Shown here in pieces: positions 8,481 to 39,530 of a stretch of 44,131 nucleotides of DNA. The stretch is taken from assembly GCF_902705855.1 (NCBI RefSeq), contig NZ_CACSIJ010000001.1:275910-320040 (forward strand). Reading direction: 5' to 3'. How positions within the stretch are numbered: position 1 is the stretch's first letter; each line of letters begins with the position of its first letter. The position numbers were made by a program, and so were the translations under genes. Origin of the DNA: Zhongshania aliphaticivorans (lineage in GTDB: Bacteria > Pseudomonadota > Gammaproteobacteria > Pseudomonadales > Spongiibacteraceae). Below the pieces are notes generated by a model, which saw only the letters and a list, made by a program, of their open reading frames with translations, had not been told where the DNA came from and ran no database searches.

Positions 8481-9320
8481 TTAAATACGCTTCAGCACCA
8501 TTCGGGTACCGGCATTCATAAGCGGCACCAATAAACGATCGTAGCAGCTAGGCAATAATCGCTGAACCACATCCAGCAACTTAGCATCACCCCCGATAAG
8601 TACCCGCGTCTTGGATTTACGCATTCCACGTATAATAACCGCAGCGGCTTTTTCTGGCGTGGTGGCAGCAATGCTATTAAAAAGATCCGCCGTTTTCCCA
8701 ATATCAGCCGCGTTACCCGTAATCGAATTTAGGTGCCTGCCATTATTGGCTATATTGGTTTTTATACCACCGGGATGCACCGTAACCACCTTTACCTTGG
8801 TGTCACGTAAATCTTGACGCAAGGATTCTGAATAACCTCTTACCGCAAATTTAGCGGCGTTATACGACGATTGCGACGGTACCGACATCAAACCAAATAA
8901 AGACGAAATATTGACCACGCAGGCTTCTGGGCGCTCCAGCAACTCAGGCAAGAAAGCCTCTACCCCGTTAATCACACCCCAGTAATTAATACCGAACACC
9001 CACTCCATTTGTTCACGCGGCTGCTCAGCGGCGTGGCAACTCAGCGCCACGCCTGCATTATTAATAATTCCATCTACCACTCCAAAGTGCGCCTTTACTG
9101 ACTTTGCCCACGCTTTCATGGCCGCATTATCGCTAACATCTAATTTAGCCAAAAATAGCTCAGACTCATCGCCATACTCACGAAGAACTTGTAAGTTTGC
9201 CTCGACAATATCTGAAGCCGCAACCCGGGCCCCAGCAGCTCTTAAACCAATAACCAACGCTCTACCAATACCTGATCCGGCACCGGTCACGGCGATAACT
9301 TTATTATTAAAATTTTTCAC
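8481..9320 (-). CDS. Short-chain dehydrogenase/reductase (catabolic operon, gene 4)
   Basis: This 279-residue classical SDR has the cofactor motif TGAGSGIG at residues 12-19 and NNAG at 87-90. The catalytic residues are Ser140, Tyr153 and Lys157 (YNAAK). Asp37 at the end of the second strand suggests NAD(H) preference. Its C-terminal extension, with PEKAAAVIIRGMRKSKTRVLIG, is typical of SDRs encoded beside Baeyer-Villiger monooxygenases. It is the last gene of a four-gene operon and starts 14 bp after the monooxygenase stop. A likely role is oxidation of an alcohol to the ketone that the monooxygenase accepts. The substrate is not known. Confidence 0.9.
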   Translation of the reverse strand: MKNFNNKVIAVTGAGSGIGRALVIGLRAAGARVAASDIVEANLQVLREYGDESELFLAKLDVSDNAAMKAWAKSVKAHFGVVDGIINNAGVALSCHAAEQPREQMEWVFGINYWGVINGVEAFLPELLERPEACVVNISSLFGLMSVPSQSSYNAAKFAVRGYSESLRQDLRDTKVKVVTVHPGGIKTNIANNGRHLNSITGNAADIGKTADLFNSIAATTPEKAAAVIIRGMRKSKTRVLIGGDAKLLDVVQRLLPSCYDRLLVPLMNAGTRMVLKRI

Positions 9321-9334
9321 CCTAAGCCTCTAAA

Positions 9335-10870
9335 TTAACTTGCCGTCGCCACAGAAGACTCTAATTCTGCCACCGCATTAGACGCGTTCACAAACTCATA
9401 CTCCGCCGCAGAAAAATGCCGTGTTGTTAATCGATACTGCCAAGAGAAACTCGGCCACAAGGTGGTGTTTTTACCGTCTTTGGTTAGGTACCAACTATTA
9501 CAACCCGACGTCCACGTGGTGCCCTTAAAGCGCTCTTGTATATCGGCATTAAACTCGCGCTGAACCATCGGCTTTAAATCAAGATATTTATTCTGACTTT
9601 TTCGCAGCGTTTTTAAATATTTCAAAATATAATTAATTTGTGATTCGATATAGAAAATCACTGAGGTGTTACCCGGCCCTGTGTTTGGTCCCATGACGTA
9701 CATCATGTTGGGATAACCTGACACCGCTATACCCTTATAAGCCTCACAACCTATCGCCCAATCCTTTGCAAGCAAGCGGCCACCCACTCCGCGAATAGGG
9801 ATCGGCGCACCAGAAACAGGCACTTTAAAACCGGTAGCATAAACAATCGCATCCACCTCATGGCGCTGGCCATCACTGGTGCATATGGCCGTCTCATCAA
9901 TCTTGTCAATACCCTCTACACAGACATTGACGTTACTCTTAGTCAAAGCAGGATAATATTCATCCGACAACAAAACCCGCTTACAGCCCATCGCATATTT
10001 AGGCGACAATTTATTCTGCAAAGCAGGATCACTCACCACTTTACGTAAATAACGCCGCGCGATGGTTTCGCCGAACCTTGTAAGAAAACTGTCCCACATA
10101 AAAGCAGGCACCACACTTTCAGCCATCAAATATTGCAGGCGACGCACAGTTGTTTGCACCATCGGCCAGCGCCTGTATAGGTCTTGGCGCTCAGGGCTAA
10201 GCGGTTTATCAAACTTGGGCATTACCCACGGTGGCGTGCGCTGGAAAACGCTAAGCTCCGCTACTTGAGATTGAATGGACGGAACAACTTGGATCGCACT
10301 CGCGCCAGTACCAATAACAGCAACACGCTTACCTGAAAGGTCATAACTTTCATCCCATTCCGCTGTATGCATTACTTTGCCAGCAAAATCATCAACACCC
10401 GTTATTTCAGGATATTGAGGGATATTTAAAGCACCAATTGCCATAACGACAGCACGCGCTTGACGCTGGCCGCCATCTGAAAATGTCAGTCGCCACAGAC
10501 CTGTGACTTCACAAAAATCCATTGCCGTTAATGACGTATTGAATTCAATTTTGTCACGCAACTTATATTTTTCTGTGCAATGGCGCAGATAGCGATGAAT
10601 CTCTTGCTGCGGGCCAAAAGTTCTACCCCAGTCAGGATTTGGCTCGAAGGAAAACGAATATAAATGTGAAGGCACATCACAGGCCGCACCCGGGTATACA
10701 TTGTCTCGCCACACCCCACCTACATCGCTCGCACGCTCATAAATCACAAAGTCATTAAGCCCTTGCTGCTGCATGCGAATGGCCACGCCCAAGCCACCAA
10801 AACCAGCACCAATTATGGCAACTTCGTCGACACGCCTATTACTTTGAGAATTATTTTTATCGTTGGTCAT
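9335..10870 (-). CDS. Flavin-containing Baeyer-Villiger-type monooxygenase
   Basis: The 511-residue flavoprotein has an FAD motif GAGFGGLG at residues 21-28 and an NADPH motif GTGASA at 187-192. Both type I BVMO fingerprints are present: GGVWRDNVYPGAACD (residues 51-65) and FAGKVMHTAEWD (162-173). Such enzymes insert an oxygen next to a ketone to give an ester or lactone, using NADPH and O2. The operon supplies what would be needed on either side: an SDR to make the ketone and an alpha/beta hydrolase to open the ester. It starts 3 bp after the hydrolase stop. Substrates of related enzymes include cyclic, aromatic and steroid ketones, so the substrate here is open. Confidence 0.92.
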   Translation of the reverse strand: MTNDKNNSQSNRRVDEVAIIGAGFGGLGVAIRMQQQGLNDFVIYERASDVGGVWRDNVYPGAACDVPSHLYSFSFEPNPDWGRTFGPQQEIHRYLRHCTEKYKLRDKIEFNTSLTAMDFCEVTGLWRLTFSDGGQRQARAVVMAIGALNIPQYPEITGVDDFAGKVMHTAEWDESYDLSGKRVAVIGTGASAIQVVPSIQSQVAELSVFQRTPPWVMPKFDKPLSPERQDLYRRWPMVQTTVRRLQYLMAESVVPAFMWDSFLTRFGETIARRYLRKVVSDPALQNKLSPKYAMGCKRVLLSDEYYPALTKSNVNVCVEGIDKIDETAICTSDGQRHEVDAIVYATGFKVPVSGAPIPIRGVGGRLLAKDWAIGCEAYKGIAVSGYPNMMYVMGPNTGPGNTSVIFYIESQINYILKYLKTLRKSQNKYLDLKPMVQREFNADIQERFKGTTWTSGCNSWYLTKDGKNTTLWPSFSWQYRLTTRHFSAAEYEFVNASNAVAELESSVATAS

Positions 10871-10873
10871 TGT

Positions 10874-11875
10874 CTATATCACTCGTGTTTGTGCTCGCCA
10901 GAAGTCACCAACAACTCTTGCCGTCAGGCGCGGATCTTCAAGCATGGGTAAGTGGCCCACTCCGGGTAAAATCATCGCCTTAGCACCGGCGATTTGCTCA
11001 CAAAATTGATCAGCGCACGTTACGTCCAAAACCTGATCCGAATCGCCCCACAACACCAACGTCGGCGCCGTAATTTTATTCAAGCTTTGATACGTATCTT
11101 TGAGGGAGTCCACCAAATGCGAAAAAATATAGTCATTAACGCATTTTCGATGGCTCATCGCGCCCGCCATAAAACAACTTAAAACCATGCCAAATGCACG
11201 TTGCCGCCTATGTAAGGCAATGGCAAAAACCTGCCATGTATCGCCCCGCTTGCCTGGCGCCAAATAATTCACACCCGCTGCCAAACCACTTTCTAATTGG
11301 CTAAGATGCCGACCTGGCACACCCGCCGCATTCATTAAACATAAGGTGTCGACTAATTGGGGGTGACGCGAGGCAAGCTGCGCCGCAATAGCGCCGCCCA
11401 TAGAACTACCGGCAAAGTGTGCTTTTTCGACCCCCAACAGTTTCAGCCATGCCGCAATTCGATCTGCCTGAGGTGCCATTCGATAATCGGCGTCGACATG
11501 AAAGTCACTGTCGCCAAACCCCGCTAAGTCGGGCACCAATAGATAGTAGTCACTACGTAATTTTGCGGTTAAATAACTCCAATTTTCTTTGCTCGATCCA
11601 AAGCCATGAAGCAAGACAACAACTGGGCCAGCGCTATTCCCACCGGCCCAATAACAAATATTGTGATCATCTACCTGCGTTACTCTACGCTTCAATCCTG
11701 CCTGCAAACCCATTACCGGCTGTAGGCGCTTCCATAAGGTCGCTTTAGGCCGCCAGTTAGCAAGCGCTGCGCGATCAACATTGGCCAGCGGCGTAGCCAA
11801 ATAGCGATCACGCATGACATCTAACTCGGCCAAAATGGCAGTATTCTTCTCTGCAATTCCGCTCACCGCGATCAT
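10874..11875 (-). CDS. Alpha/beta hydrolase, probable esterase or lactonase
   Basis: This 333-residue alpha/beta hydrolase has an oxyanion-hole motif HGFGSSKENW from residue 90. The nucleophile elbow is GSSMGG, with Ser158 in G156-x-S-x-G160. A late acid block WGDSDQVLD and a His block GVGHLPMLEDP complete the catalytic triad. No signal peptide is visible, so it is cytoplasmic. Its start overlaps the stop of the PF10118 gene by 4 bp. In this operon the natural inference is cleavage of the ester or lactone made by the Baeyer-Villiger enzyme, but C-C bond hydrolases share the same fold. Confidence 0.88.
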   Translation of the reverse strand: MIAVSGIAEKNTAILAELDVMRDRYLATPLANVDRAALANWRPKATLWKRLQPVMGLQAGLKRRVTQVDDHNICYWAGGNSAGPVVVLLHGFGSSKENWSYLTAKLRSDYYLLVPDLAGFGDSDFHVDADYRMAPQADRIAAWLKLLGVEKAHFAGSSMGGAIAAQLASRHPQLVDTLCLMNAAGVPGRHLSQLESGLAAGVNYLAPGKRGDTWQVFAIALHRRQRAFGMVLSCFMAGAMSHRKCVNDYIFSHLVDSLKDTYQSLNKITAPTLVLWGDSDQVLDVTCADQFCEQIAGAKAMILPGVGHLPMLEDPRLTARVVGDFWRAQTRVI

Positions 11876-12729
11876 GCCGTAGCACCTGTTACCGCATTGT
11901 CGTAGGCAGCCACTTCGCCAACAAGTGAATCTATATCAGCTAGGTAATGTGCGTTGTCATGATCCCAAGGATGAAAGCCCGGTTTAAAGTAATCCAGCCA
12001 ATCAGGAATTATTCGGCGCAATGCCCCCGGCGAACCCCACAAAAAGTTAGTCACTTTAATCCAGCCCCGAATATTGAAGAGCTGACCTTCACGGCGCACT
12101 AAACCGATATGAAAAGGAATAACCATCATCCAAAAGATAAATGTCGCAGTAAGTAGTGCCAAACAACGATGCAAATACCCTGACAAACCACCACCCAACA
12201 CCTGCTGATACACGTCGTAGGCAACAGCCTTGTGCTCCGTTTCTTCTAGTGCGTGCCACTTCCATATCGCAGCGTAACGTGGCTCAGCCCCTTCTAAACT
12301 GCGGGGTTCACTTAACACCATATTGGCTAGAATTGCTGTCAAATGCTCTAACGCAATTGTGGTGGCGAGCTGCATAGACTTTGGAGTGAATCGGGTAAGA
12401 AATTTCAATAAGCGAATCACAATCCGACCATAGCGGTCCGCAGGCAGACCCTTTGCCACCAAGGCATCGTTGTACTCTTCATGCTCTCTACCGTGCATCG
12501 CTTCTTGCCCAATAAATCCTCTCACCGATTCCCCTAATTCCGGATCGTGAATACGATCTCGGTAATGACGCACGCTATCAATAAAGAAGCGCTCACCGTC
12601 TGGAAAGAATATCGACAAGGCATTGAAGAAATGGGAGACATGGGCACCACCTGCGTGCCAATCGCCTATACGGTCTTTTGGCAGGTGGAATTCTAGATTA
12701 CGGCGTACTGGCTGGATTATAGTTTTCAC
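11872..12729 (-). CDS. PF10118-family protein with a diiron-carboxylate ligand pattern
   Basis: This 285-residue all-helical protein belongs to the family labelled 'predicted metal-dependent hydrolase'. The sequence shows the full ligand set of ferritin-like diiron proteins: Glu46 (helix A), E76-A-M-H79 (helix B), Glu128 (helix C) and E163-T-E-H166 (helix D). The gaps are 30, 52 and 35 residues. This two-ExxH arrangement is that of diiron oxygenases, R2 proteins and desaturases. An oxidative rather than hydrolytic role is therefore plausible but inferred. A hydrophobic segment near residues 185-210 suggests membrane association. It is the first gene of the operon and is preceded by the conserved promoter/operator at 12757-12806. 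Confidence 0.82.
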   Translation of the reverse strand: MKTIIQPVRRNLEFHLPKDRIGDWHAGGAHVSHFFNALSIFFPDGERFFIDSVRHYRDRIHDPELGESVRGFIGQEAMHGREHEEYNDALVAKGLPADRYGRIVIRLLKFLTRFTPKSMQLATTIALEHLTAILANMVLSEPRSLEGAEPRYAAIWKWHALEETEHKAVAYDVYQQVLGGGLSGYLHRCLALLTATFIFWMMVIPFHIGLVRREGQLFNIRGWIKVTNFLWGSPGALRRIIPDWLDYFKPGFHPWDHDNAHYLADIDSLVGEVAAYDNAVTGATA

Positions 12730-12756
12730 AAATCATCCTCTTATGAATCATCTTAT

Positions 12757-12806
12757 TATGTAACACCATTTAATGTCACATTAATCATGACATCACCCAA
12801 TGTCAA
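12757..12806 (-). promoter_or_regulatory. Promoter/operator A of the diiron-BVMO operon
   Basis: On the minus strand TTGACA (plus-strand complement 12801-12806) and TAATGT (12778-12783) are 17 bp apart. They are followed by a TGTNACA element, TGTTACA (12759-12765). The same elements occur in identical register upstream of the TonB receptor at 16215-16264. The outer blocks are conserved while most of the -35/-10 spacer differs, as expected of a real promoter with a downstream operator. Confidence 0.75.
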
Positions 12807-12855
12807 GTAGATTCGAATAAATCTGCTGTTGGTATATTTTGCACTTTAACGTTCA

Positions 12856-12896
12856 GCACGAGGCCAAATTTCTATGAAAGAAATCTGGCCTCGTGC
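12856..12896 (-). terminator. Long stem-loop after the START-domain gene
   Basis: Two 18-nt arms, 12856-12873 and 12879-12896, pair with a single mismatch around a 5-nt loop. The outer arm is GCACGAGGCCA. It lies 33 bp past the stop of the START-domain gene and upstream of promoter A. That placement suits a terminator separating the two operons, although no T-tract follows. Confidence 0.6.
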
Positions 12897-12929
12897 TCTC
12901 GAAGAAAGGAATAACGCTCACGCGTCTTA

Positions 12930-13595
12930 TCAGAAGGGGTTGAAATTAGCGTACTCAGCCAAAGCGGCTCGCTTACGTAATGCTTTTAAAGTTTCAAATG
13001 GATTATCAACAATCATCGCATTTACTAACCCAGAAGGCAGCGAACCCACCGGATTCAGATGTAATTGAAATACCACTTTAGTTTGCGTGTCGCTAAGAGG
13101 ACTTAACTCAAAAAAGCCTTGAACTTCTTCTACCCTCACCGCATCGGTGTTTGGTGGCATCGCTTCTTTAGCTTTGACAGGTAACGCATCGACACCAACA
13201 CCGGTGAGTTTTACGGTAGTAATACGACTGATCGGGTCTTGGGAAATTTCATTACGTAAAATCAATTCCCGATCAGCCGCCGGCCACGGGAAATCATTAA
13301 TCAAATACTGATAGCGATCCAACAAACTTGCCTTATAAAGCAACTTTGGGCTTTTGCATTTAAACATCCAATGTACAAAACCCTCGGTGTCGTCTAGCAC
13401 CGCCATCAATTGATTAAGCTCCGCATTTATAATGGTTTCACCACGAAATGCTCGATAGTCAGAGCCATCTACAATTCGTGTAAAAACCTGAATACCGCCC
13501 TCATCTTTCTCTAGCCTCCATTCAGCGGCTACTAATGAAAAACTAAGCAACATTAACGCGAGAACTTGCAAACACTGACCTTGTAGCTTCTTCAT
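12930..13595 (-). CDS. Exported START-domain lipid-binding protein
   Basis: The 221-residue protein has a clear signal peptide (residues about 1-24, ending SLVAA). One START (StAR-related lipid transfer) domain fills the rest, recognisable from EGGIQVFTRIVDGSDYRAF, the central NDFPWPAADRELILRN block and a C-terminal helix with LPSGLVNAMIVDNPFETL. START domains form a hydrophobic cavity for sterols, phospholipids or other lipids. Export implies a periplasmic carrier. It follows the TonB-dependent receptor by 100 bp on the same strand and probably shares its promoter, which suggests it receives the receptor's cargo. The ligand is unknown. Confidence 0.87.
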   Translation of the reverse strand: MKKLQGQCLQVLALMLLSFSLVAAEWRLEKDEGGIQVFTRIVDGSDYRAFRGETIINAELNQLMAVLDDTEGFVHWMFKCKSPKLLYKASLLDRYQYLINDFPWPAADRELILRNEISQDPISRITTVKLTGVGVDALPVKAKEAMPPNTDAVRVEEVQGFFELSPLSDTQTKVVFQLHLNPVGSLPSGLVNAMIVDNPFETLKALRKRAALAEYANFNPF

Positions 13596-13695
13596 ATTTC
13601 CCTCAGCCTTTAATCTCAGTCGCTTTTAAATTTCATCGCGCTACCGCTAGCGAAATACTCCCCCAGCGGCAGTAAGCATTAATGAAATGGCCAAA

Positions 13696-16170
13696 TCACA
13701 TACGATATGTAAACTGCATCGCAATCGAGCGTGGAGGTTCAATAAAGCCCGTATGGCTCGTAGCACCAAAGATAGTTTTTGACAGCGGTGTATCAGCTGC
13801 ATATACCACAACCACTTTGTCGGTTAAGTTTTTACCCACCAACGCCAACTCCCACTGTTTATCAATTGGGCCAATACCAATACGGCCATTCACTTTAATA
13901 AAACCATCTTGCTCAACCCGTGGGTCAAGGTTAGATGAGGGATTGTAGTTATCGGTAAACACAAAATCTAAGCCCATACCGATGCCCATCGTAGGGCTAA
14001 TCGGACGAATATAGCCTATAAGAAAGGTGCCCGACCAATCGGCAACATATTGGTTACTCTGTCCAGTGTAATCACAAAATAAGCCGTCATCCGAGGTAGC
14101 CGCTTGGTCTTGCTGACACTGCCCATTTTTAAAATCAGTGAACTCAAAGTCTAATATTGCTAAAGCACCGCCCAAACTTAAGTAATCCGTGATTTGCCAG
14201 CGACCATCCATCTCAATCCCCATCGTGACAGCCTCTTGAGCATTACCAACATTAAAGCCGAGCGTACCGTCGAAAAGGCTAATTTGAAGATCGTTATACT
14301 GGGTATAAAAAGCGGCAATATTGAATTCGGCTGCACCATCCAGAAGCCCTGTTTTCAGACCTAACTCAAGACTTGTCGCCTCTTCCTCTTCGTACTCAAA
14401 GGTTCCGACCAAAACCTGCTGGTTCGCAACCAATGCATTAGGGTTACGCGGAGTAGGGTCAGAACTTGGCGACATATTGGAGCGCGCGTCAAAGCCACCC
14501 GCTTTAACACCCTTGGTCGCCGTAAAGTAAGCCATCCCCTCGTCTGAATAGTCCCACTGTATATTTAATAGCGGCGAAAAGGATGTCTCTGTTCTCTTAC
14601 CTTTAAGATCATGGCGCTCAGCAGAAAATGTGATCGCGGAAACCGTATCTACCTCACCTATCGGTAAAACATTGCCATCAAGGTCGGCAAACTCAAGCTT
14701 ACGGCTACCGGTTTTTTGCTCAAGAGTTCCACGCCCACCTAAGGTCAAGCGAAGGTTGTCACCAAAATGAAAGGTCGTCTGTAAAAACGCAGAGAATATA
14801 TTAGATGTACTTAAAAATTTACGCGGCGCCGTAATATTCGCCACTGCATTACCCGCATCACCAACGCCGAGAACTTCCTCTGGCGCACCACTTAGTTGAA
14901 GCGGATCAATGTCGCCGCGCCCGCCCGCTTCCAATAAATCGGCGGCATTAAGCAACTGCACAACCGTCGCCGAGTCTTGAATTAACTTATCGCGGAAATC
15001 GAGCTCGTTGCGCTGCATATACACACCGCCAATATACTCAACATCTTCACCACCCGGCGACACCCAACGAAATTCCTGACTGTACTGGGTGTAATCTTCG
15101 CCCAGCGCTAATTTAAATAATTCCGCAGCGGTAGCATCACAGTCGCAAAGGTCGCTATAACTATAGTGTAAATAACCCGTGATCGCGGTAAATTCATGCC
15201 CGCTATCGGTAACTCTTGTTAAATTAGTGGTTAAATTCAAGGTTTCGTTGTTACTGAAATCACCATTGGAAGTGCGCTTAAAATCTTGATAATTATTCAA
15301 TACTGAGTCGTCGATATTGACGTCAACAACACCAGGAAATTGGGTGTTATTTAGAATCTCAGCCTCGGTCTTACCGGTGAATAAAAATACGTCTGATGTT
15401 GAAGGCTCATCATTAATAACTTCAGCCTGACGCCCCACACTATCGAAGGTACCTGTTTCAATCTTCGCTAAAAGCGTTGTCTTGTCATCAATTTCCCAAG
15501 CCGCTTTTAAACGGAAGGTCGCTTGGTCGTATTGGGGCTCATCGCGATCTAAAAAAAGGTTTTCTACAAAGCCACCGTATTCACGAAGACGGGCTGAGAA
15601 CCGTAAACCTAGAGTGTCAGTCACTGGGCCAGACAACATGATATCGGCCACCTTTTCGTCGTACTTCGGCTCATATAAAGTAGAAAACAGGGCTTCGAAA
15701 TAATCTGAGGGATTCGCCGTAATCAGATTTACCGCGCCAGCAATACTATTTTTACCGTGCAAAATATTTTGCGGGCCGCGCAACACCTCTACCCGTGCTA
15801 AATCTAGAAATGGCGCCCGCGCAAGCTGAGCACGCCCATAATAAATTCCGTCTACATACATACCCACGGATTGTTCAAAACCTTGGTTCATCCCCGTACC
15901 GATACCACGAATAAAAATATCGGTGCTGATACCACTTTCCGTTACGGTTAGATTAGGAACATAAGCTTGGAGGTCCTCCATACGGTTTATACCCGCCTCC
16001 ATCATTTTTTCGCCACCGATTGCGCTAACCGAAACCGGAACATCTTGGAGACTTTGAGTTCGATGCTGGGCCGTGACCACCACCTCCTCTAAAACGGCGG
16101 CAAAAGCCCCTGCCGGTGCCAAACTCATGGCCAACAAACAAAATGAAACGGACGTATTGCGACTACCCAT
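13696..16170 (-). CDS. TonB-dependent outer-membrane receptor
   Basis: The 824-residue receptor has a signal peptide (residues 1-24, ending PAGAFA) and a TonB box EEVVVTA just after it (residues 28-34). A plug domain covers about 40-155, with DVPVSVSA, GMYVDGIYYGR and RVEVLRGPQNILHGKNS. The 22-strand barrel region extends to the C-terminal FTYRM. It imports a substrate across the outer membrane with TonB-ExbB-ExbD energy. The plug style (VPVSVSAI, GKNSIAGAVN) is that of the large group common in marine and sphingomonad catabolic loci, not of a typical siderophore receptor. The downstream START protein and shared operator with the diiron-BVMO operon point to a hydrophobic organic substrate. 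Confidence 0.93.
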   Translation of the reverse strand: MGSRNTSVSFCLLAMSLAPAGAFAAVLEEVVVTAQHRTQSLQDVPVSVSAIGGEKMMEAGINRMEDLQAYVPNLTVTESGISTDIFIRGIGTGMNQGFEQSVGMYVDGIYYGRAQLARAPFLDLARVEVLRGPQNILHGKNSIAGAVNLITANPSDYFEALFSTLYEPKYDEKVADIMLSGPVTDTLGLRFSARLREYGGFVENLFLDRDEPQYDQATFRLKAAWEIDDKTTLLAKIETGTFDSVGRQAEVINDEPSTSDVFLFTGKTEAEILNNTQFPGVVDVNIDDSVLNNYQDFKRTSNGDFSNNETLNLTTNLTRVTDSGHEFTAITGYLHYSYSDLCDCDATAAELFKLALGEDYTQYSQEFRWVSPGGEDVEYIGGVYMQRNELDFRDKLIQDSATVVQLLNAADLLEAGGRGDIDPLQLSGAPEEVLGVGDAGNAVANITAPRKFLSTSNIFSAFLQTTFHFGDNLRLTLGGRGTLEQKTGSRKLEFADLDGNVLPIGEVDTVSAITFSAERHDLKGKRTETSFSPLLNIQWDYSDEGMAYFTATKGVKAGGFDARSNMSPSSDPTPRNPNALVANQQVLVGTFEYEEEEATSLELGLKTGLLDGAAEFNIAAFYTQYNDLQISLFDGTLGFNVGNAQEAVTMGIEMDGRWQITDYLSLGGALAILDFEFTDFKNGQCQQDQAATSDDGLFCDYTGQSNQYVADWSGTFLIGYIRPISPTMGIGMGLDFVFTDNYNPSSNLDPRVEQDGFIKVNGRIGIGPIDKQWELALVGKNLTDKVVVVYAADTPLSKTIFGATSHTGFIEPPRSIAMQFTYRM

Positions 16171-16214
16171 AATTCAAGACCTGCTATCAATTTTATTGTT
16201 ATACTACACGCCAC

Positions 16215-16264
16215 TATGTAACAGCGTTTGATGGGACATTAATTCGCGACCAAGCCTATGTCAA
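16215..16264 (-). promoter_or_regulatory. Promoter/operator B of the TonB receptor operon
   Basis: On the minus strand TTGACA (16259-16264) and TAATGT (16236-16241) lie 17 bp apart, with TGTTACA (16217-16223) downstream. Compared with 12757-12807 the 51-bp block keeps 35 identical positions without a gap, concentrated in the -35, -10 and TGTTACA parts. It sits between the receptor and the divergent MerR-type gene. Confidence 0.75.
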
Positions 16265-16418
16265 GAAAATGTTGACATCGACACCATTGGAATAATACCA
16301 ACATAAAATTCAAGCTAGCCCAAGCACATTGTATTAAGCGAATGCTTTAGTAAGAATTGCCAAATAAAATCAAACCGTTACAAGACAGGTCTACTTAACT
16401 TCGAGGGTGCCAAGCACA

Positions 16419-17273
16419 GTGAAAAGCATGAAATTTCCCGAAGACACCATAAGCAGTATGGCCCAGCTACTACCGCAAACTGGGTTTACTGCCGATGTTC
16501 AAAACGCCGACCACCAGCGTGACTACTCCGTTGAAGAACTCGCTTTAGCAGCCAACACCACAGTTCGTAACATCCGCGCTTACCAAGACCGGGGCGTACT
16601 CCCCCCGCCAGCGCTACAGGGCCGAAAAGGCGTGTATAGTAACGTCCACTTATCTCGTCTTCGGCTTATCGCCAATTTACTCGATCGGGGCTACACCCTC
16701 TCTAGTATTCGCGAGCTAATCTCGGCGCTTGAGGAAGGCATTGGTCTGAGCGAAGTACTTGGCATAGAATCGGCACTTAACTCACCATGGACAAATGAGT
16801 CACCAACAAATATCGCCATGACCGAGCTAGTCAAAATGTTTGGCACCAAATTGACCCCCTCTGCGGTAAAAACTGCACACGATCTTGGCTTATTCTCTAT
16901 TTCGGGCACCCACCTTCGGGTCTCGAGCATGAACACACTAAAAGTTGCCGAAGAACTTTGTGCTACCGGTATTCCTTTAGATGAGTTATTAGATATTTTG
17001 CGAATGATGCGAGGCAATGTGCAGCGTGTTGCAAATGAGTTTGTAAAATTAATATCTCACCACGTACTTGAGCCCTATGCAGAACAAAAGCTACCACCGC
17101 CAGAAGAGCTACCCAAAATTGCTGAATTAATCTGGCGATTACGGCCACTCGCTGAAAAAGTAGTCGATGCCGAACTGGGTCGTGCGATGGAAATCGCCGC
17201 CAGTGAATTCCTAGCAGACACCTTAGAATCCATCATGGATGATCTGCCAAAAGATACGACAAACAAAGATTAA
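16419..17273 (+). CDS. MerR-family transcriptional regulator
   Basis: This regulator of about 284 residues has an N-terminal MerR winged helix: YSVEELALAANTTVRNIRAY, then DRGVLPPP and HLSRLRLIANLLDRGYTLSSI. A long C-terminal domain of about 170 residues follows, without the Cys clusters of metal sensors, as in MerR proteins that bind organic ligands. Start: GTG 16419 has GAGGG 11 bp upstream; GTG 16407 and ATG 16428 are also in frame. It is divergent from the TonB receptor, and operator B lies between them. It is the obvious candidate to control both copies of that operator, though the 17-bp promoter spacing is not the stretched 19-20 bp of classic MerR activation. Confidence 0.88.
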   Translation: MKSMKFPEDTISSMAQLLPQTGFTADVQNADHQRDYSVEELALAANTTVRNIRAYQDRGVLPPPALQGRKGVYSNVHLSRLRLIANLLDRGYTLSSIRELISALEEGIGLSEVLGIESALNSPWTNESPTNIAMTELVKMFGTKLTPSAVKTAHDLGLFSISGTHLRVSSMNTLKVAEELCATGIPLDELLDILRMMRGNVQRVANEFVKLISHHVLEPYAEQKLPPPEELPKIAELIWRLRPLAEKVVDAELGRAMEIAASEFLADTLESIMDDLPKDTTNKD

Positions 17274-33904: not shown

Positions 33905-35125
33905 CTAAAACTGTGTGAGATTATTCAACTGCAGTATCGGCAGCATGATCGCCAATACAATAGACAACACAACACCCCCCAGTACCACAATCAACAAGGG
34001 CTCAAACAAACTAACAAACATTTGTACTCGCGCTTGTAACTCGCGCTCTAAATTACTCGCCGCACGCTGGGTCATCGCTTCCATTTCACCACTGGCTTCG
34101 CCGCTGGCGATCATGTAAATCGCCAAGGGCGGTAGCTCAGCTTCGTCTTGCAGACAGCGACTAAAACTCTTACCCTCGCGCACTTGCTCACGCACCGTCG
34201 CCATACTTTTTTTCAAATGCTGGTTGGCCAAGGTATCGCAGGCGACCTTCAATGTTTCTAAAAATGGGACGCCAGAAGACATTAGAATTGACAATGTTCT
34301 GAGCATCCGCGCCGAATCTAGTTCCAACATTAACAGACCCCATAATGGGATTTTTAAAATTGCTTTGTCGGCCCTCAAGCGCCGCTCAGGCGAACGTAGC
34401 CACCACTTAACAGTAAGTGCTAGCGCGACAATAATCACCACCATGTAATACCAATTCGCCGCAAGACCATCACTCAAGGTAATGAGAATACGGGTTAATA
34501 GTGGCAAGGCCTGATCATAATGGGCGAACTGTGCAGTGACCTTAGGCACAACATACGTCATTAATGCGGCGATAACAGACAGCGCTACAAAACACAGTAC
34601 TATGGGATACATCGCCGCCTGCACAATAACACCGCGTAATTTCTGGCTGTCTTCGGTGTAATCGGCAAGCTGATCGAGAATGAGACCGAGATCTCCTGAT
34701 TTCTCACCGGAACTTACCAACGCCCTAAACACTGGATTAAATACCTGAGGGTGCTCATTCAAACCATCGGCTAAGGAATGCCCTTCTAAAACCCTAGCGC
34801 GCAGGTCTAATACCACCCGCTTTAAATACGCTTTGCGGGTGTGTTTAGCAGTCGCGGCAAGAGCCTCTTCTAAGGGAATACCAGATTGGATAAGCGTTGC
34901 CAAGTGCCGAACAAATAAAGCCAGATCAGCGATACTAACGCGGGAACGGCCAAAACTGCGACGGGCGTTTTCAGCCTTGGTTTTTTCGCGAGTTTGTTTT
35001 ACGTCTAAAGGAAATAGTTGCTGATCACGCAATAATTGCCGCGCTTGGCGCCCAGAATCAGCCTCAACAATACCTTTCTTATTGGCGCCGCTGGCATCGA
35101 GTGCGCGATATTCAAAGGCCGGCAT
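33905..35125 (-). CDS. gspF: Type II secretion inner-membrane platform protein GspF
   Basis: The 406-residue protein starts MPAFEYRALDASG, the usual GspF opening. Two T2SSF domains are present, the first around LFVRHLATLIQSGIPLEEAL and the second around MLRTLSILMSSGVPFLETL. Hydrophobic helices lie near residues 165-190, 215-235 and 370-395. GspF is the polytopic core of the assembly platform and contacts GspE and GspL. ATG 35125 was preferred to an in-frame start 18 bp upstream because of the conserved opening. It overlaps gspE by 14 bp. Confidence 0.95.
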   Translation of the reverse strand: MPAFEYRALDASGANKKGIVEADSGRQARQLLRDQQLFPLDVKQTREKTKAENARRSFGRSRVSIADLALFVRHLATLIQSGIPLEEALAATAKHTRKAYLKRVVLDLRARVLEGHSLADGLNEHPQVFNPVFRALVSSGEKSGDLGLILDQLADYTEDSQKLRGVIVQAAMYPIVLCFVALSVIAALMTYVVPKVTAQFAHYDQALPLLTRILITLSDGLAANWYYMVVIIVALALTVKWWLRSPERRLRADKAILKIPLWGLLMLELDSARMLRTLSILMSSGVPFLETLKVACDTLANQHLKKSMATVREQVREGKSFSRCLQDEAELPPLAIYMIASGEASGEMEAMTQRAASNLERELQARVQMFVSLFEPLLIVVLGGVVLSIVLAIMLPILQLNNLTQF

Positions 35126-36596
35126 CACCGCCCTCTCGTACACTTCTCAGTAGTTCATCAAGACTTGTTTGACCGGCTAAGACCAAGCGCCGACCCTCGC
35201 CCATTAAGGACGGCATATCATTGCCGACCTTACGTAGAATATCCTGTTCGCTGGCGCGATTATGAATAAGCTCTGCTACTTCGCGATCAACAACCAATAA
35301 TTCATAAACCCCTTGGCGCCCCTTATAGCCAGTATGTTGGCACTCGTCGCAGCCCGCCGCATTATAGGCTTTGTGGCCTTCTAAGCTCAGATCGCCAAGT
35401 AAACGCGCTTCGGTTTTATCTAATATAATTTCATGACGGCAATGCTGGCATAATTTACGAACCAAACGTTGGGCGACTACGCCTTTCAAGCTCGATGCGA
35501 TCAAATACGGCTCCACACCGATGTCGACCAAGCGTGTCACGGCACCAACAGCAGTATTGGTGTGCAATGTCGAGAGCACCATGTGCCCAGTTAACGATGC
35601 TTGAACCGCGATCTCCGCAGTCTCTTTATCTCGCACTTCACCAAGCATCACCACGTCTGGATCTTGACGAAGGATGGCACGCAAACCACGCGCAAAGGTC
35701 ATTCCCACCTTGGCATGAACCTGAGTTTGACCAATACCGTCAATATCGTATTCCACCGGATCTTCAACGGTAAGAATATTACGGCGCCGGTCATTCAACG
35801 ACATTAATCCTGCATAAAGCGTCGTGGTTTTACCCGAGCCCGTCGGCCCAGTTACCAGTAAAATTCCATTGGGTTGTTGCAATAAATCTTTCAGCGCAGC
35901 GAGGGTTTTCTCTGGCATACCGAGTTGATTAATATCTATGCGAGCAGCTTGTTTGTCGAGCAAACGCATAACGACACGCTCGCCGTAATTCGACGGGATG
36001 GTAGACACCCGCACGTCGACAGACCGACCGGCAATACGCAGCGACACTCGACCATCTTGCGGCACCCGCTTCTCTGCAATATCTAGTCGCGACATTACCT
36101 TAATGCGCGACACCAGCAACGGCGCTAAACGTCGGCTGGGGGTTAGCACTTCTTGCAAGATACCGTCGACACGCAGACGCACCGACATAGTTTTCTCGTA
36201 AGTTTCTATATGGATATCAGAAGCATCACGCTTCAGCGCTTCACCGAATAAGGCGTTGATTAAGCGAATAACCGGCGCGTCGTCCTGAGCATCGAGTAAA
36301 TCCTGCGACTCAGGAATTTCTTCCGCAAGACGATCAAGGTCAACCTCACTAGAAATATCACCCATTGCCGACATAGCGTCGCCCTGCTGGCGTTGGAAGG
36401 TCTCATTAATTTTGTCTTGCAGCGTTTTCTCATCGCAGAGCGTTAAGTTCACCTGCCCAGCAAGCACCCGCTGAACCTCTGCGACGGCAGAGGCGGGAGT
36501 TTCTTTACAACACAAGACATCGAAAGACCCATCGCTGCGGTCTTCGACTAAAACGCGATTACTGCGCGCAAATGCATAACTTAGCGGCTGACTCAT
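35112..36596 (-). CDS. gspE: Type II secretion ATPase GspE
   Basis: The 494-residue AAA-like secretion ATPase has an N-terminal GspL-binding domain and a linker. The Walker A motif GPTGSGKTT is at residues 250-258, an Asp box near 278 (TVEDPVEYDIDG), the Walker B region VVMLGEVRD at 315-323 and a His box near 345 (STLHTNTAVGA). A zinc site is formed by Cys383, Cys386, Cys416 and Cys419. It powers pseudopilus growth from the cytoplasmic side. It starts 1 bp after gspD ends. Length equals that of well-studied GspE proteins. Confidence 0.97.
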   Translation of the reverse strand: MSQPLSYAFARSNRVLVEDRSDGSFDVLCCKETPASAVAEVQRVLAGQVNLTLCDEKTLQDKINETFQRQQGDAMSAMGDISSEVDLDRLAEEIPESQDLLDAQDDAPVIRLINALFGEALKRDASDIHIETYEKTMSVRLRVDGILQEVLTPSRRLAPLLVSRIKVMSRLDIAEKRVPQDGRVSLRIAGRSVDVRVSTIPSNYGERVVMRLLDKQAARIDINQLGMPEKTLAALKDLLQQPNGILLVTGPTGSGKTTTLYAGLMSLNDRRRNILTVEDPVEYDIDGIGQTQVHAKVGMTFARGLRAILRQDPDVVMLGEVRDKETAEIAVQASLTGHMVLSTLHTNTAVGAVTRLVDIGVEPYLIASSLKGVVAQRLVRKLCQHCRHEIILDKTEARLLGDLSLEGHKAYNAAGCDECQHTGYKGRQGVYELLVVDREVAELIHNRASEQDILRKVGNDMPSLMGEGRRLVLAGQTSLDELLRSVREGGDAGL

Positions 36597-36597
36597 A

Positions 36598-38643
36598 TTA
36601 TGGTGCGGCCGGTGCCGATGCTGGAGCTTTAAGTAATTTCTTTTCCACTGCCTCTTCTGCCGGCGTCATCGGCGGCGGCACAGGCTTATTCGGTAAAATC
36701 CCCGGTGGCGATGGGTCCATACCGGCCCATTCAGGCAGCACCGCCATGTCCGTGAAGGGGAATAAATTTATGCCCTGCTCAGCCTTAACCAGCTGCTCAG
36801 CGCGAATATAATTGTATTTACGCGCGCTCAGCTCAGACAAGGTATTCTGATCTCGAACAATCGTTGGGCGGATAAACACCATCAAATTACGTTTAACTTT
36901 GCTCGTGCTGTCTGAGCGGAACAAACGGCCCAGTATCGGAATATCACCTAATAAGGGTACTTTTGCAGATTGCTCCGTCACCTGATCATCAATCAGACCA
37001 CCCAGCACAATAGTCGCACCATCGTTCACCAGTACAGCGGTTTTAATCGTTCGCTTATTCGTGATGACATCCGCTGCATCGGTAGATGGGCTTAACGATG
37101 ACACTTCTTGCTCAATATTCAACTGTACTGCGTCACCCTCATTAATTTGCGGCGTGAATAGCAGTTTGATACCCACCTCTTGACGGCTAATCGTTTGGAA
37201 AGGATTGGCATTCGTTGAGCTGGCCGTAGAGCCGGTCACCACGGGTATTTCCTGCCCCACCAAGATCGATGCCTCTTCATTGTCGAGGGTTAAAAGACTT
37301 GGTGTAGAAAGAATATTAGATTCAGTGTCACTCGATAACGCCGTTAACAAAGCCGCAAAACTAAAGGCACCGTCTTTTAGCTTACCAAGGCCAAAAGCTG
37401 CACCGCGAACCCCGCTCAATGCCGCTGCAGCCGCTTCTTCTCCAGCAAGTAGGCTCACAATACCAGGCGCACTACCGCTACCCGATGCTCCGCCACCAAA
37501 ATTAATACCACCGGCAGGCGTATTCCCTGAAGAGTCGCCCTTAAACAACCACTGAACACCGAGTTCTTTTGCGCGGTTGTCCGACACTTCAATAATGATC
37601 GCTTCAACCAAGACCTGCGCGCGGCGTATATCTAGGTCGGCAATAACTGACTCTAAATTGTCGATAATATGCGGGCTACCAGACATTACGATTGAATTAG
37701 TTTGATCGTGTGCCTCAATATTAATCAGTGAAGAACTAGCTGAGTTACTTACCGCTTTTCCGGCCTCTTCGCCTTTTACCAAGGTATCGCTAATGCTTTT
37801 AAGTACCGGCGCAATATCTGCGGCCTTAGCGTATTTTAAATACCGCACGCGGATATTCGATTGATTACTCACTTCGCTATCTAAATCTTTTACTAAGCGC
37901 CGCAAATAGGAGCGCGCATCGTCGTCACCAAACAAGATCAAGGTATTGGTACGCGGGTCTGCTGCTACCACAGGCTTAGCAGCACCACGTTTACGGGTTT
38001 GCTGAGACAAGACCTTAGTGAGTATGCGTTCTACTTCTTCTGCAGAGGAATGCTCGAGCACAACGGTTTCCATCAACTGGGTATCTACCGCATTCACAGC
38101 GTTCACGATAGACATAAGCCGCCGCACATTCGACTCGCGATCGGTAATCAAAATAATATTTGAGTCAGCATAACTAGTGATCACGCCAACTTTATTATCG
38201 ACTAAGGGCCTTAGTGACTTAACCAGCTCGTCGGCATCAGCATTTTGCAACTGTGCAATACGCGTGATGATTGATTCACTACGCCCCATTGAGGAGCGAT
38301 CTGACTGAACGCTAATACCTTCAATTTTGGCGGCTTGATTGGGGATGACTTTTAAAATGCCATCGCCTACTTCAATCGCAGAATAACCTTCAACCCCTAA
38401 TTGAAGCAGGAATATTTGGTACAGCTCTTCAGCGTCTAACTTCCGATGACTTTCGACGCTAATTTTCCCCTTAACACGGCTGTCTACCACGATGGTCTTA
38501 CCCGTCAATTTAGCGACGGTGTTTATAAACTCACCAATGTCGACATTCTGCATGTCGAGGTCGAAACGTTCCGCGAATACGCTGCCAGAAAAAACGACGA
38601 AAAGCCCAAGGGCAAGACAGGATTTACGCAATAAGAATTTCAT
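36598..38643 (-). CDS. gspD: Type II secretion outer-membrane secretin GspD
   Basis: The 681-residue protein has a signal peptide (residues about 1-24, ending GSVFA). It has an N0 domain (FDLDMQNVDIGEFINTVAK), N1-N3 repeats (QNADADELVKSLRPLVDN and VLEHSSAEEVERILTKVLS among them) and a secretin barrel domain from about residue 330. The barrel has the Gly-rich loop ahead of LLAGEEAAA and the closing VPLLGDIPILGRLF. A Pro/Ala-rich tail follows. It forms the outer-membrane channel. No pilotin gene (gspS) is adjacent. Its start overlaps the gspC stop by 4 bp. Confidence 0.97.
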   Translation of the reverse strand: MKFLLRKSCLALGLFVVFSGSVFAERFDLDMQNVDIGEFINTVAKLTGKTIVVDSRVKGKISVESHRKLDAEELYQIFLLQLGVEGYSAIEVGDGILKVIPNQAAKIEGISVQSDRSSMGRSESIITRIAQLQNADADELVKSLRPLVDNKVGVITSYADSNIILITDRESNVRRLMSIVNAVNAVDTQLMETVVLEHSSAEEVERILTKVLSQQTRKRGAAKPVVAADPRTNTLILFGDDDARSYLRRLVKDLDSEVSNQSNIRVRYLKYAKAADIAPVLKSISDTLVKGEEAGKAVSNSASSSLINIEAHDQTNSIVMSGSPHIIDNLESVIADLDIRRAQVLVEAIIIEVSDNRAKELGVQWLFKGDSSGNTPAGGINFGGGASGSGSAPGIVSLLAGEEAAAAALSGVRGAAFGLGKLKDGAFSFAALLTALSSDTESNILSTPSLLTLDNEEASILVGQEIPVVTGSTASSTNANPFQTISRQEVGIKLLFTPQINEGDAVQLNIEQEVSSLSPSTDAADVITNKRTIKTAVLVNDGATIVLGGLIDDQVTEQSAKVPLLGDIPILGRLFRSDSTSKVKRNLMVFIRPTIVRDQNTLSELSARKYNYIRAEQLVKAEQGINLFPFTDMAVLPEWAGMDPSPPGILPNKPVPPPMTPAEEAVEKKLLKAPASAPAAP

Positions 38644-39530
38644 ATATCAAATCTTTTGGTGAGTATGGTGTCGGCACGTTGAACCAGCAGTTCAAACGAG
38701 GTGGTATTTTGCATTAGTTTAAATAATTCTTGTGGCTGTAAATCGGCGACTGACTGACCATTTACAGACAAAACAACATCACCGGGTTCAAGAGAAAGCT
38801 GGTCGAACAGACGTTTATCGCGTCCCGGTTTAATCTCATACCCTAGTAAGCGTCCGCCCTCGTTAACGGGGTTAGCCGAGAAAAACCGAGCCAACATAAG
38901 TGGGCTGTTTTGTACGGTGTCTCTGGCATCACCAATCAATGAGCGAATTTCTGGCGTATTCAAATCGACGGTACTGTTGTCACCAGCACTCGGTGAGGCT
39001 GCGCTACTAATACCTGCGAGCCCGACCTTTTTATCGAGCTCTATTTTTTCTCTTTTGCGGTTATTTTCAATAATGATGTATTCGGGAAGTACTGCAAGCA
39101 AACGCACCGAACCAGGTACTTCGATTTTCTCACCAACACTATAGGCCTTGGTTTTATTGGCATGACGCAGTACTGCCACACCTTTTTCATCATTACCGGC
39201 AACTAAACCAATAACGGTAATTTTTAGGGTGCTACGGCGAACATCCTTTTCAGATTCTGTTGCCGCCACCTCGCCCACTGGTGGCACCCCAAATAAAGGC
39301 ACCCCAAGTAAACTTTGAACATCGTAAGATGAACTACTAGCTCCCGCCGAACCAGCACTCTGGGGATCATCATTCACTACTGCGGCAGGTAAGGCCGGAT
39401 CGCGAAGCCATGCTGATATTTGCCAGCATAAACCCGCCAAACACGCTAATAGCAGTGCCCACAGTAGAACGTTCGCGAGACTCACTACGCGAGGAGGGAA
39501 AAACTTTATCCAGATGACAGAGCGATCCAC
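38640..39530 (-). CDS. gspC: Type II secretion system protein GspC
   Basis: The 296-residue protein has one N-terminal transmembrane helix (about residues 20-40, VLLWALLLACLAGLCWQISAW). A homology region at about 95-170 (LKITVIGLVAGNDEKGVAVL to IIENNRKREKIELD) binds the secretin N0 domain. A C-terminal PDZ domain carries GRDKRLFDQLSLEPGDVVLS. GspC connects the inner-membrane platform to GspD and is the first gene of the operon. The start is GTG 39530, without an obvious strong ribosome binding site. No confident promoter was found in the 169 bp upstream. Confidence 0.94.
   Translation of the reverse strand: MDRSVIWIKFFPPRVVSLANVLLWALLLACLAGLCWQISAWLRDPALPAAVVNDDPQSAGSAGASSSSYDVQSLLGVPLFGVPPVGEVAATESEKDVRRSTLKITVIGLVAGNDEKGVAVLRHANKTKAYSVGEKIEVPGSVRLLAVLPEYIIIENNRKREKIELDKKVGLAGISSAASPSAGDNSTVDLNTPEIRSLIGDARDTVQNSPLMLARFFSANPVNEGGRLLGYEIKPGRDKRLFDQLSLEPGDVVLSVNGQSVADLQPQELFKLMQNTTSFELLVQRADTILTKRFDI

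Follow-up and report, generated by a model that had tools for sequence, protein, structure and literature searches.

A stepped palindrome array shared by two promoters of Zhongshania aliphaticivorans is a putative operator of a divergent MerR-type regulator

The 44,131-nucleotide stretch of the Zhongshania aliphaticivorans genome analysed here (the window; positions 275,910 to 320,040 of contig NZ_CACSIJ010000001.1, assembly GCF_902705855.1) contains two minus-strand operons with closely similar upstream blocks, and a gene for a MerR-type regulator. Operon 1 encodes a PF10118 protein, a possible ferritin-type diiron enzyme (11872-12729; PF10118, E 4e-91), an alpha/beta hydrolase (10874-11875; PF00561), a flavin monooxygenase (FMO) that is probably of the Baeyer-Villiger monooxygenase (BVMO) type (9335-10870; PF00743 and PF13738) and a short-chain dehydrogenase (SDR; 8481-9320; PF00106). 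Operon 2 encodes a TonB-dependent receptor (13696-16170; PF00593 and PF07715) and a START-like lipid-binding protein (12930-13595; PF01852, E 1.9e-4, 0.7 bits under the Pfam cut-off). The MerR-type gene, which has a long C-terminal part, lies on the plus strand at 16407-17273 (PF13411 at residues 40-107, E 6e-18) and is divergent from the TonB-START operon, as an earlier reading of the sequence alone, the first-pass annotation, had stated.

The 51-bp blocks at 12757-12807 and 16215-16265 (both minus strand) align without gaps with 35/51 identical positions, while the best other 51-mer of the window reaches 27 identities to the first block and 28 to the second. Both contain TTGACA, a 17-bp spacer, TAATGT and TGTTACA at equal distances, and their spacers agree at only 6 of 17 positions. 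A 50-mer built from the letters common to the blocks matches these two window places only (up to 3 mismatches; mean 0.00 matches in 100 shuffled windows), and a 27-mer portion matches the same two places only in the whole 3.95-Mb genome, again with up to 3 mismatches. These results bear out the first-pass annotation on the 35 identities and on a spacer that diverged while the functional parts were kept. The TGTTACA element that it singled out is present in both blocks, but the repeated unit is really a 9-bp palindrome, ATGTnACAT, found at offsets 0, +15 and weakly +30, and the array passes the block edges to about 12743 and 16201. TAATGT and TGTTACA are parts of this one array with its 15-bp step.

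Upstream of operon 1 (all elements on the minus strand), TTGACA at 12801-12806 would be the -35 and TAATGT at 12778-12783 a weak -10, followed by palindrome copy 1 (ATGTGACAT, 12773-12781), copy 2 15 bp on (GTGTTACAT, 12758-12766) and a degenerate copy 3 30 bp on (ATGATTCAT, 12743-12751). The corresponding elements of operon 2 are the -35 TTGACA at 16259-16264, a weak -10 TAATGT at 16236-16241, copy 1 (ATGTCCCAT, 16231-16239), copy 2 (CTGTTACAT, 16216-16224) and a degenerate copy 3 (GTGTAGTAT, 16201-16209), likewise on the minus strand. We infer the -35 and -10 assignments from conservation, the -10s being placed by position. The inner halves of copies 1 and 2 form an 18-bp inverted repeat, TnACAT-N6-ATGTnA (the operator core), at 12761-12778 with 1 mismatch and at 16219-16236 with 2 mismatches. 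Operon 1 carries an extra inverted repeat, TGACA-N8-TGTCA, over the -35 and spacer at 12788-12805, which is present in part of the Zhongshania genomes. A GC-rich hairpin at 12856-12896 (minus strand; 16-bp arms with one G-T pair, without a T-run) occupies the interval that separates the START gene from the promoter of operon 1 and could keep the transcripts of the START gene and operon 1 apart.

As the first-pass annotation had expected, the element is conserved upstream of orthologous operons. We compared the window with 19 fetched MerR loci of the Zhongshania family (together the f1 set) and found the tandem ATGTnACAT-N6-ATGTnACAT, with up to 3 mismatches, upstream of the TonB gene in 20/20 loci; 16/20 also carry it before the PF10118 gene (all except L050, L051, L057 and L063). 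The tandem before TonB is the sole one at this threshold in the sister-genus loci L050, L051 and L063, where the TonB, START, PF10118, hydrolase and FMO genes are close-packed on one strand, with the SDR also in the row where the fetched stretch extends far enough. A single site thus appears to serve the whole gene row in the sister genus, and the pair of blocks is a Zhongshania arrangement of a shared switch. In part of Zhongshania (L046, L047 and L052-L054) the START gene is separated from the promoter of operon 1 by an extra gene, which resembles part of a hydrolase-SDR fusion encoded on contig 13 of the window genome (40-47% identity).

Since the promoters are just 3.5 kb apart and the three sister-genus loci have the tandem only before TonB, the similarity of the blocks could be what remains of a promoter that was duplicated recently, without any regulator in common. 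We consider this highly improbable: the spacer has diverged while the array was kept, both sites persist over many f1 genomes, and the same core stands before other genes in other families.

The spacing of the palindromes is exact. There are 49 ATGTnACAT pairs (up to 2 mismatches) at gap 6 in the 19 fetched f1 loci, compared with 0-3 at each of ten other gaps (2-5 and 7-12), and 28 at gap 6 in 40 distant MerR loci, compared with 0-2 per other gap; overlapping pairs are included, and three control cores gave 0-2 pairs at every gap. Exact copies of TnACAT-N6-ATGTnA number 48 (19 in f1, 25 in the distant-order set and 4 at Burkholderia-type loci), while the same core at 16 other gaps between 0 and 16 occurs 0 or 1 times per set and 0-2 times summed over the three sets. 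By these counts the inner 18-bp inverted repeat is the most widely kept part of the array. In the reversed order, ATGTnA-Ns-TnACAT occurs 8 times (f1) and 3 times (distant) at gap 12, where it represents the outer halves of the tandem, and 5 times in f1 at gap 9, in keeping with the distance between the extra repeat of operon 1 and copy 1; further occurrences are 2 and 1 at gap 2, and a single one at gap 10. Although degenerate, the third step (+30) is the best of the remaining offsets for each of the three promoter groups (tied with -5 for the f1 PF10118 group), and a third copy with at least 6/8 letters is found in 9/15 non-redundant TonB, 4/8 f1 PF10118-gene and 2/28 distant promoters.

The tandem with up to 2 mismatches occurs in 19/19 f1 loci and 21/40 distant loci (expectation 0 from 5 Markov resamplings), and with up to 3 mismatches in 30/40 distant loci (0.8 at random). 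Outside f1, 25 of the 29 exact cores are found upstream of, and no more than 200 nt from, a gene of the queried pathway set. At four loci with Betaproteobacterial-type neighbours (L187 of Burkholderia arboris, and L189, L191 and L192 of family f59, taken as its kin), the exact core precedes FMO-SDR-PF10118 rows 1.4-4.9 kb from the MerR gene; the site sequences of L187 and L192 are identical. Two loci are excluded from the core counts: the fourth f59 locus, L190 (G625), where the MerR gene is at the end of a short contig and there is no site, and the Nocardia locus L188, a plasmid relative that has a MerR protein and lacks matches to the pathway proteins queried; the best tandem in its stretch has 4 mismatches.

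The site follows the MerR gene across genomes. Homologues of the MerR-type protein were found in 20/21 genomes of the family (E 1e-10), 58/390 of the order (E 1e-15) and 13/398 sampled across the phylum (E 1e-25). Among the 390 order genomes the tandem with up to 1 mismatch is present in 32/58 with MerR and 5/332 without (Fisher, 8e-26), as compared to 2/58 and 6/332 for a control motif read backward (p 0.34). Such co-occurrence counts are inflated by the relatedness of the genomes; outside f1 they are 16/41 MerR genomes and 5/331 others (p 3e-13). G018, the sole f1 genome without the MerR, has neither motif nor PF10118 homologue and keeps TonB paralogues at 53%. Of the five genomes with the motif and no MerR, four (G117, G133, G168 and G276) lack a PF10118 homologue at E 1e-10 as well, and their matches are probably due to chance; the fifth is G334.

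We fetched 11 loci around sites with up to 1 mismatch on contigs without the MerR gene or tens of kilobases from it, ten in MerR genomes and one in G334, where the search gave no full-length MerR of this type. Ten of the 11 sites are upstream of a PF10118 gene or an SDR/FMO row, and the remaining one, at L150, lies within an open frame and is probably a chance match. This is the pattern of a regulon, unlike that of one conserved intergenic region. The single uptake-plus-catabolism regulon proposed by the first-pass annotation is thus supported by the conserved sites, the co-occurrence with MerR and the remote sites at pathway genes, and it is wider than the two operons. Upstream of the SDR-FMO rows of L146, L147 and L153, TGAATCCGAAC precedes the tandem at a constant distance, and in two of the three it is followed by a CGG half that completes a CCGAAC...TCGG-like repeat; this element is possibly a second operator.

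An unlinked regulator might read the array instead, with the MerR link a by-product of shared descent. One candidate is a TetR-type protein encoded on contig 15 of the window genome, where a duplicated TGACA-N8-TGTCA-like repeat, with copies 27 bp apart, occupies the gap between the TetR gene and a GMC oxidoreductase gene (L042:8052-8102, C15:136051-136101). Repeats with the 27-bp spacing recur next to the closest TetR homologues in the family (16 loci), the TGACA-N8-TGTCA repeat resembles both the core and the extra repeat of operon 1, and the latter has the same 27-bp step to the core; the motif of G334, without a detected full MerR, would also fit an unlinked regulator. However, four genomes without a TetR match at E 1e-25 (G015, G001, G002 and G003; loci L058, L063, L051 and L050, respectively) keep the tandem before TonB, and the distant sites follow MerR. 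We therefore disfavour the TetR-type protein as reader of the array and, with co-occurrence screened for the MerR homologue only, regard control by an unlinked regulator as quite unlikely.

A second MerR of this kind is encoded on contig 13 of the window genome (41% identity), flanked by two PF10118 genes in a cluster that also contains an SDR, an FMO, the hydrolase-SDR fusion and an M24 peptidase-like gene. The contig-13 sites have 1 and 2 mismatches: one at C13:67188 before the M24 peptidase-like gene, and two overlapping tandem matches at C13:79613-79651 (L040:17614-17652), about 8 kb from the MerR paralogue, where a DUF4282/DUF1302 row faces a divergent Abi_alpha gene. As the whole genome has 9 places with up to 3 mismatches versus 7 for the control, only the five places with up to 2 mismatches are informative, and all five are within the window or the contig-13 region.

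Both MerR paralogues may read the same sites and form a cross-regulated network, with additional TetR control of operon 1 in part of the genus. The same type of site near the paralogue points in this direction, as does, for dual control, the additional repeat that spans the -35 of operon 1. Against it, each MerR may serve its own cluster only, and of the 20 f1 genomes in which a match was found, 18 encode just one such MerR. We regard such a network as a tentative extension, compatible with the repressor model set out below. For the array itself, the co-occurrence, the paralogue with its own cluster and sites, and the remote sites at pathway genes make the product of the divergent MerR-type gene the best supported candidate regulator.

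The MerR-type protein scores 65.1 bits against PF13411 (cut-off 21.6), which places its N-terminal winged helix-turn-helix (wHTH) domain in the MerR superfamily. It has 288 amino acids, with about 180 residues beyond the wHTH; the gene may start at the ATG at 16428 instead of 16407, because the invariant columns of seven Zhongshania MerR sequences begin at M8. Homologues in six Zhongshania records are 84-93% identical. The 15 similar sequences found in the Protein Data Bank (PDB; E 2e-6 to 0.07) are MerR-type regulators and GlnR, and none of the ten NCBIfam matches supports assignment to a curated subfamily (CueR, CadR, MerR, ZntR and others), all being far under their cut-offs. We considered whether the C-terminal part holds another winged helix and dropped the idea, as the hint came only from the secondary structure of a poor model and a profile comparison with the first wHTH was empty.

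From the position, conservation and exact spacing of the sites and their link to this MerR subfamily and to the pathway genes, we infer with good confidence that both blocks act as promoter-operators of a single regulon, which the divergent MerR-type protein represses through the array until a ligand is present. The protein, most likely as a dimer, would read the 18-bp inverted repeat, which in the f1 family forms part of a series of two or three ATGTnACAT palindromes with a 15-bp step. The spacer has a normal length of 17 bp, and the site would extend from the -10 over the likely start and some 25 bases into the leader, so that the bound protein would block RNA polymerase. A substrate or breakdown product sensed by the long C-terminal part would release it, and uptake (TonB receptor and START protein) and oxidation (PF10118 protein, SDR, BVMO and hydrolase) would be switched on together.

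The geometry of the promoters argues for this mode of action. A TTGACA-like hexamer is found 17-19 bp before the first palindrome in 20/20 f1 TonB promoters (16/16 non-redundant), which puts the -10 inside the palindrome and the array over the start and leader. The inverted ACA/TGT half-sites thus lie where a MerR-type repressor would be expected to bind, over the -10 and a likely start point, the core running from -10 to about +25. The distance from the end of the site to the aligned gene start is 17-140 nt, and 35 nt or less in 29/69 rows, with some sites adjoining a Shine-Dalgarno-like sequence; such proximity to gene starts favours blocking of RNA polymerase. The 69 rows are those of TonB and PF10118 genes only, as the MerR rows mostly show the same sites on the other strand, and three rows with distances of thousands of bases were left out as alignment artefacts (pABHSDR L085, pSDR L055 and L056); gene starts were taken from tblastn alignments and are possibly some bases off.

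In the textbook mode of the MerR family the regulator binds between -35 and -10 and, with its ligand bound, untwists an over-long spacer to activate the promoter (PMC5859096), and the wHTH of the protein described here is typical of the family. The spacer of the two blocks, measured to a putative -10, is 17 bp, not 19-20 bp, the array begins inside the -10 and runs downstream, and in 9/69 rows 17-19 nt separate the end of the site from the aligned gene start, which leaves little room for a site in the spacer. Spacer length and site position hence make classical activation unlikely, and repression lifted by a ligand is the likelier mode.

Several observations weigh against repression through the array by the MerR-type protein. 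The equal distances within the blocks noted by the first-pass annotation stand, but the promoter reading built on them is inferred: TAATGT is a poor -10 (3/6 to TATAAT), and a simple consensus promoter scan listed neither block promoter. The TTGACA-like hexamer is 18-19 bp before the first palindrome in only 6/11 non-redundant f1 PF10118-gene promoters and has no fixed distance in 28 non-redundant distant ones, so that the repressor geometry is clear mainly for the TonB promoters. The tandem with up to 1 mismatch is missing from 26/58 MerR genomes, and 10/40 distant loci lack it even at 3 mismatches. The exact core is absent from 16 of the 44 distant and Burkholderia-type loci; 12 of the 16 have at least one copy at 1 mismatch, a level at which chance matches are common, and the other four (L089, L093, L094 and L099) have none even then, although L089 has a tandem with up to 2 mismatches. 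The exact cores of L097, L100, L101 and L108 are away from every queried gene. In G334 (310 contigs, 91% complete) the motif stands directly before two PF10118 genes, while the MerR search returned only a wHTH-only match (34% identity, E 3e-5). The loci and genomes are interrelated, with near-identical sites such as those of L187/L192 and L091/L092, so the counts are not independent, and the co-occurrence screen covered the MerR homologue as the sole regulator. The structure model of the MerR-type protein is poor (pLDDT 47).

We found no description of this regulon in the open-access literature searched (subscription papers were outside its scope). The MerR-like regulators TnrA and GlnR use a TGTnA-type half-site, with a half-site order opposite to that of the array and a different spacing. 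The mycobacterial MerR-type repressor McdR (Rv1830) acts at AATnACAnnnnTGTnATT around the whiB2 transcription start, and altering the spacer length of this site abolishes the effect (PMC9040748). It has the TnACA/TGTnA half-sites of the window operator in the same orientation, also around the start, whereas 4 bp rather than 8 separate ACA from TGT, its targets belong to cell division and stress, and the parts of the description available to us contain no tandem array (PMC9040748). CvkR, a cyanobacterial MerR-type repressor of transposon targets, uses a 15-nt single palindrome, AnnACATnATGTnnT; its ACAT/ATGT half-sites and the tnsB site, which covers the start and some of the -10 in a promoter with a 17-nt spacer, resemble the arrangement described here, while 3 bp separate ACA from TGT as compared to 8 (PMC9938897). 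The MerR-like protein BldC of Streptomyces also occupies repeated sites in varying number, but it is a wHTH-only protein without effector domain on head-to-tail direct repeats, in contrast to the palindromic repeats and long C-terminal part found here (PMC5859096). FtsR of Corynebacterium is the best NCBIfam match of the MerR-type protein (residues 52-242, far under the cut-off). FtsR activates ftsZ from a 25-bp inverted repeat, AACCCTAAAGTAAAGGTTGAGGGTA, at -61 to -85 (PMC6683498), and we rejected it as a counterpart because its published motif is unlike the array. A broader proposal, which we regard as about as likely as not, is that these proteins make up an undescribed subfamily of MerR-type repressors in Gamma- and Betaproteobacteria that respond to a hydrophobic compound and govern its uptake and a PF10118 (putative diiron)-SDR-BVMO-hydrolase pathway through 18-bp cores; in the f1 family the cores would be packed into 15-bp-stepped arrays, where several dimers may bind next to each other, and the two paralogues of one genome may cross-regulate both clusters.

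The PF10118 protein belongs to its family with 305.7 bits (cut-off 33.2). Residues E46, E76xxH79, H83, E128, H129, E162 and E163xxH166 are invariant in an alignment of 19 PF10118 proteins. Ferritin-like diiron proteins carry two ExxH motifs and two further carboxylates on a helical bundle, and the invariant residues would fit this pattern. The structure model is all-helical but weak (pLDDT 53); Foldseek with it found nothing at E 0.001 or below (best 0.14), and the non-significant list is mixed and includes TenA, CADD, CmlI and RNR R2 types. A PDB search with the profile of the 19 proteins gave one irrelevant match (E 0.44), and the single sequence gave no match at E 0.1. The flavin monooxygenase matches the neopentalenolactone/pentalenolactone D synthase model far under the cut-off. 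A sensible order of steps would be hydroxylation by the PF10118 protein, oxidation of the alcohol to a ketone by the SDR, conversion of the ketone to an ester by the BVMO and cleavage of the ester by the hydrolase, while the TonB receptor and the START protein would import and hold a hydrophobic substrate. Together the two gene sets probably serve the uptake and breakdown of a greasy compound. Elsewhere in the window, type II secretion genes occupy 33905-39530 on the minus strand, with GspF-, GspD- and GspC-types assigned by Pfam (three of the row tested).

The regulator, the operator and the operons are ordinary in kind, but well defined and widely conserved. In the open-access literature searched, PF10118 is named in one paper and COG3687 in none, and the family thus seems little studied. 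The regulator-operator pair marks its partner genes: the operator could be used to find further genes of the pathway, and a reporter could be used to find the inducer. Where the classical picture of the MerR family is one of activation by spacer distortion, the array adds a group of putative MerR-type repressors with a half-site spacing and a stepped array of their own. Comparison with other bacteria suggests that the switch shared by the two operons is bound by an uncharacterised regulator of the MerR type whose gene accompanies those of these oxidative enzymes.

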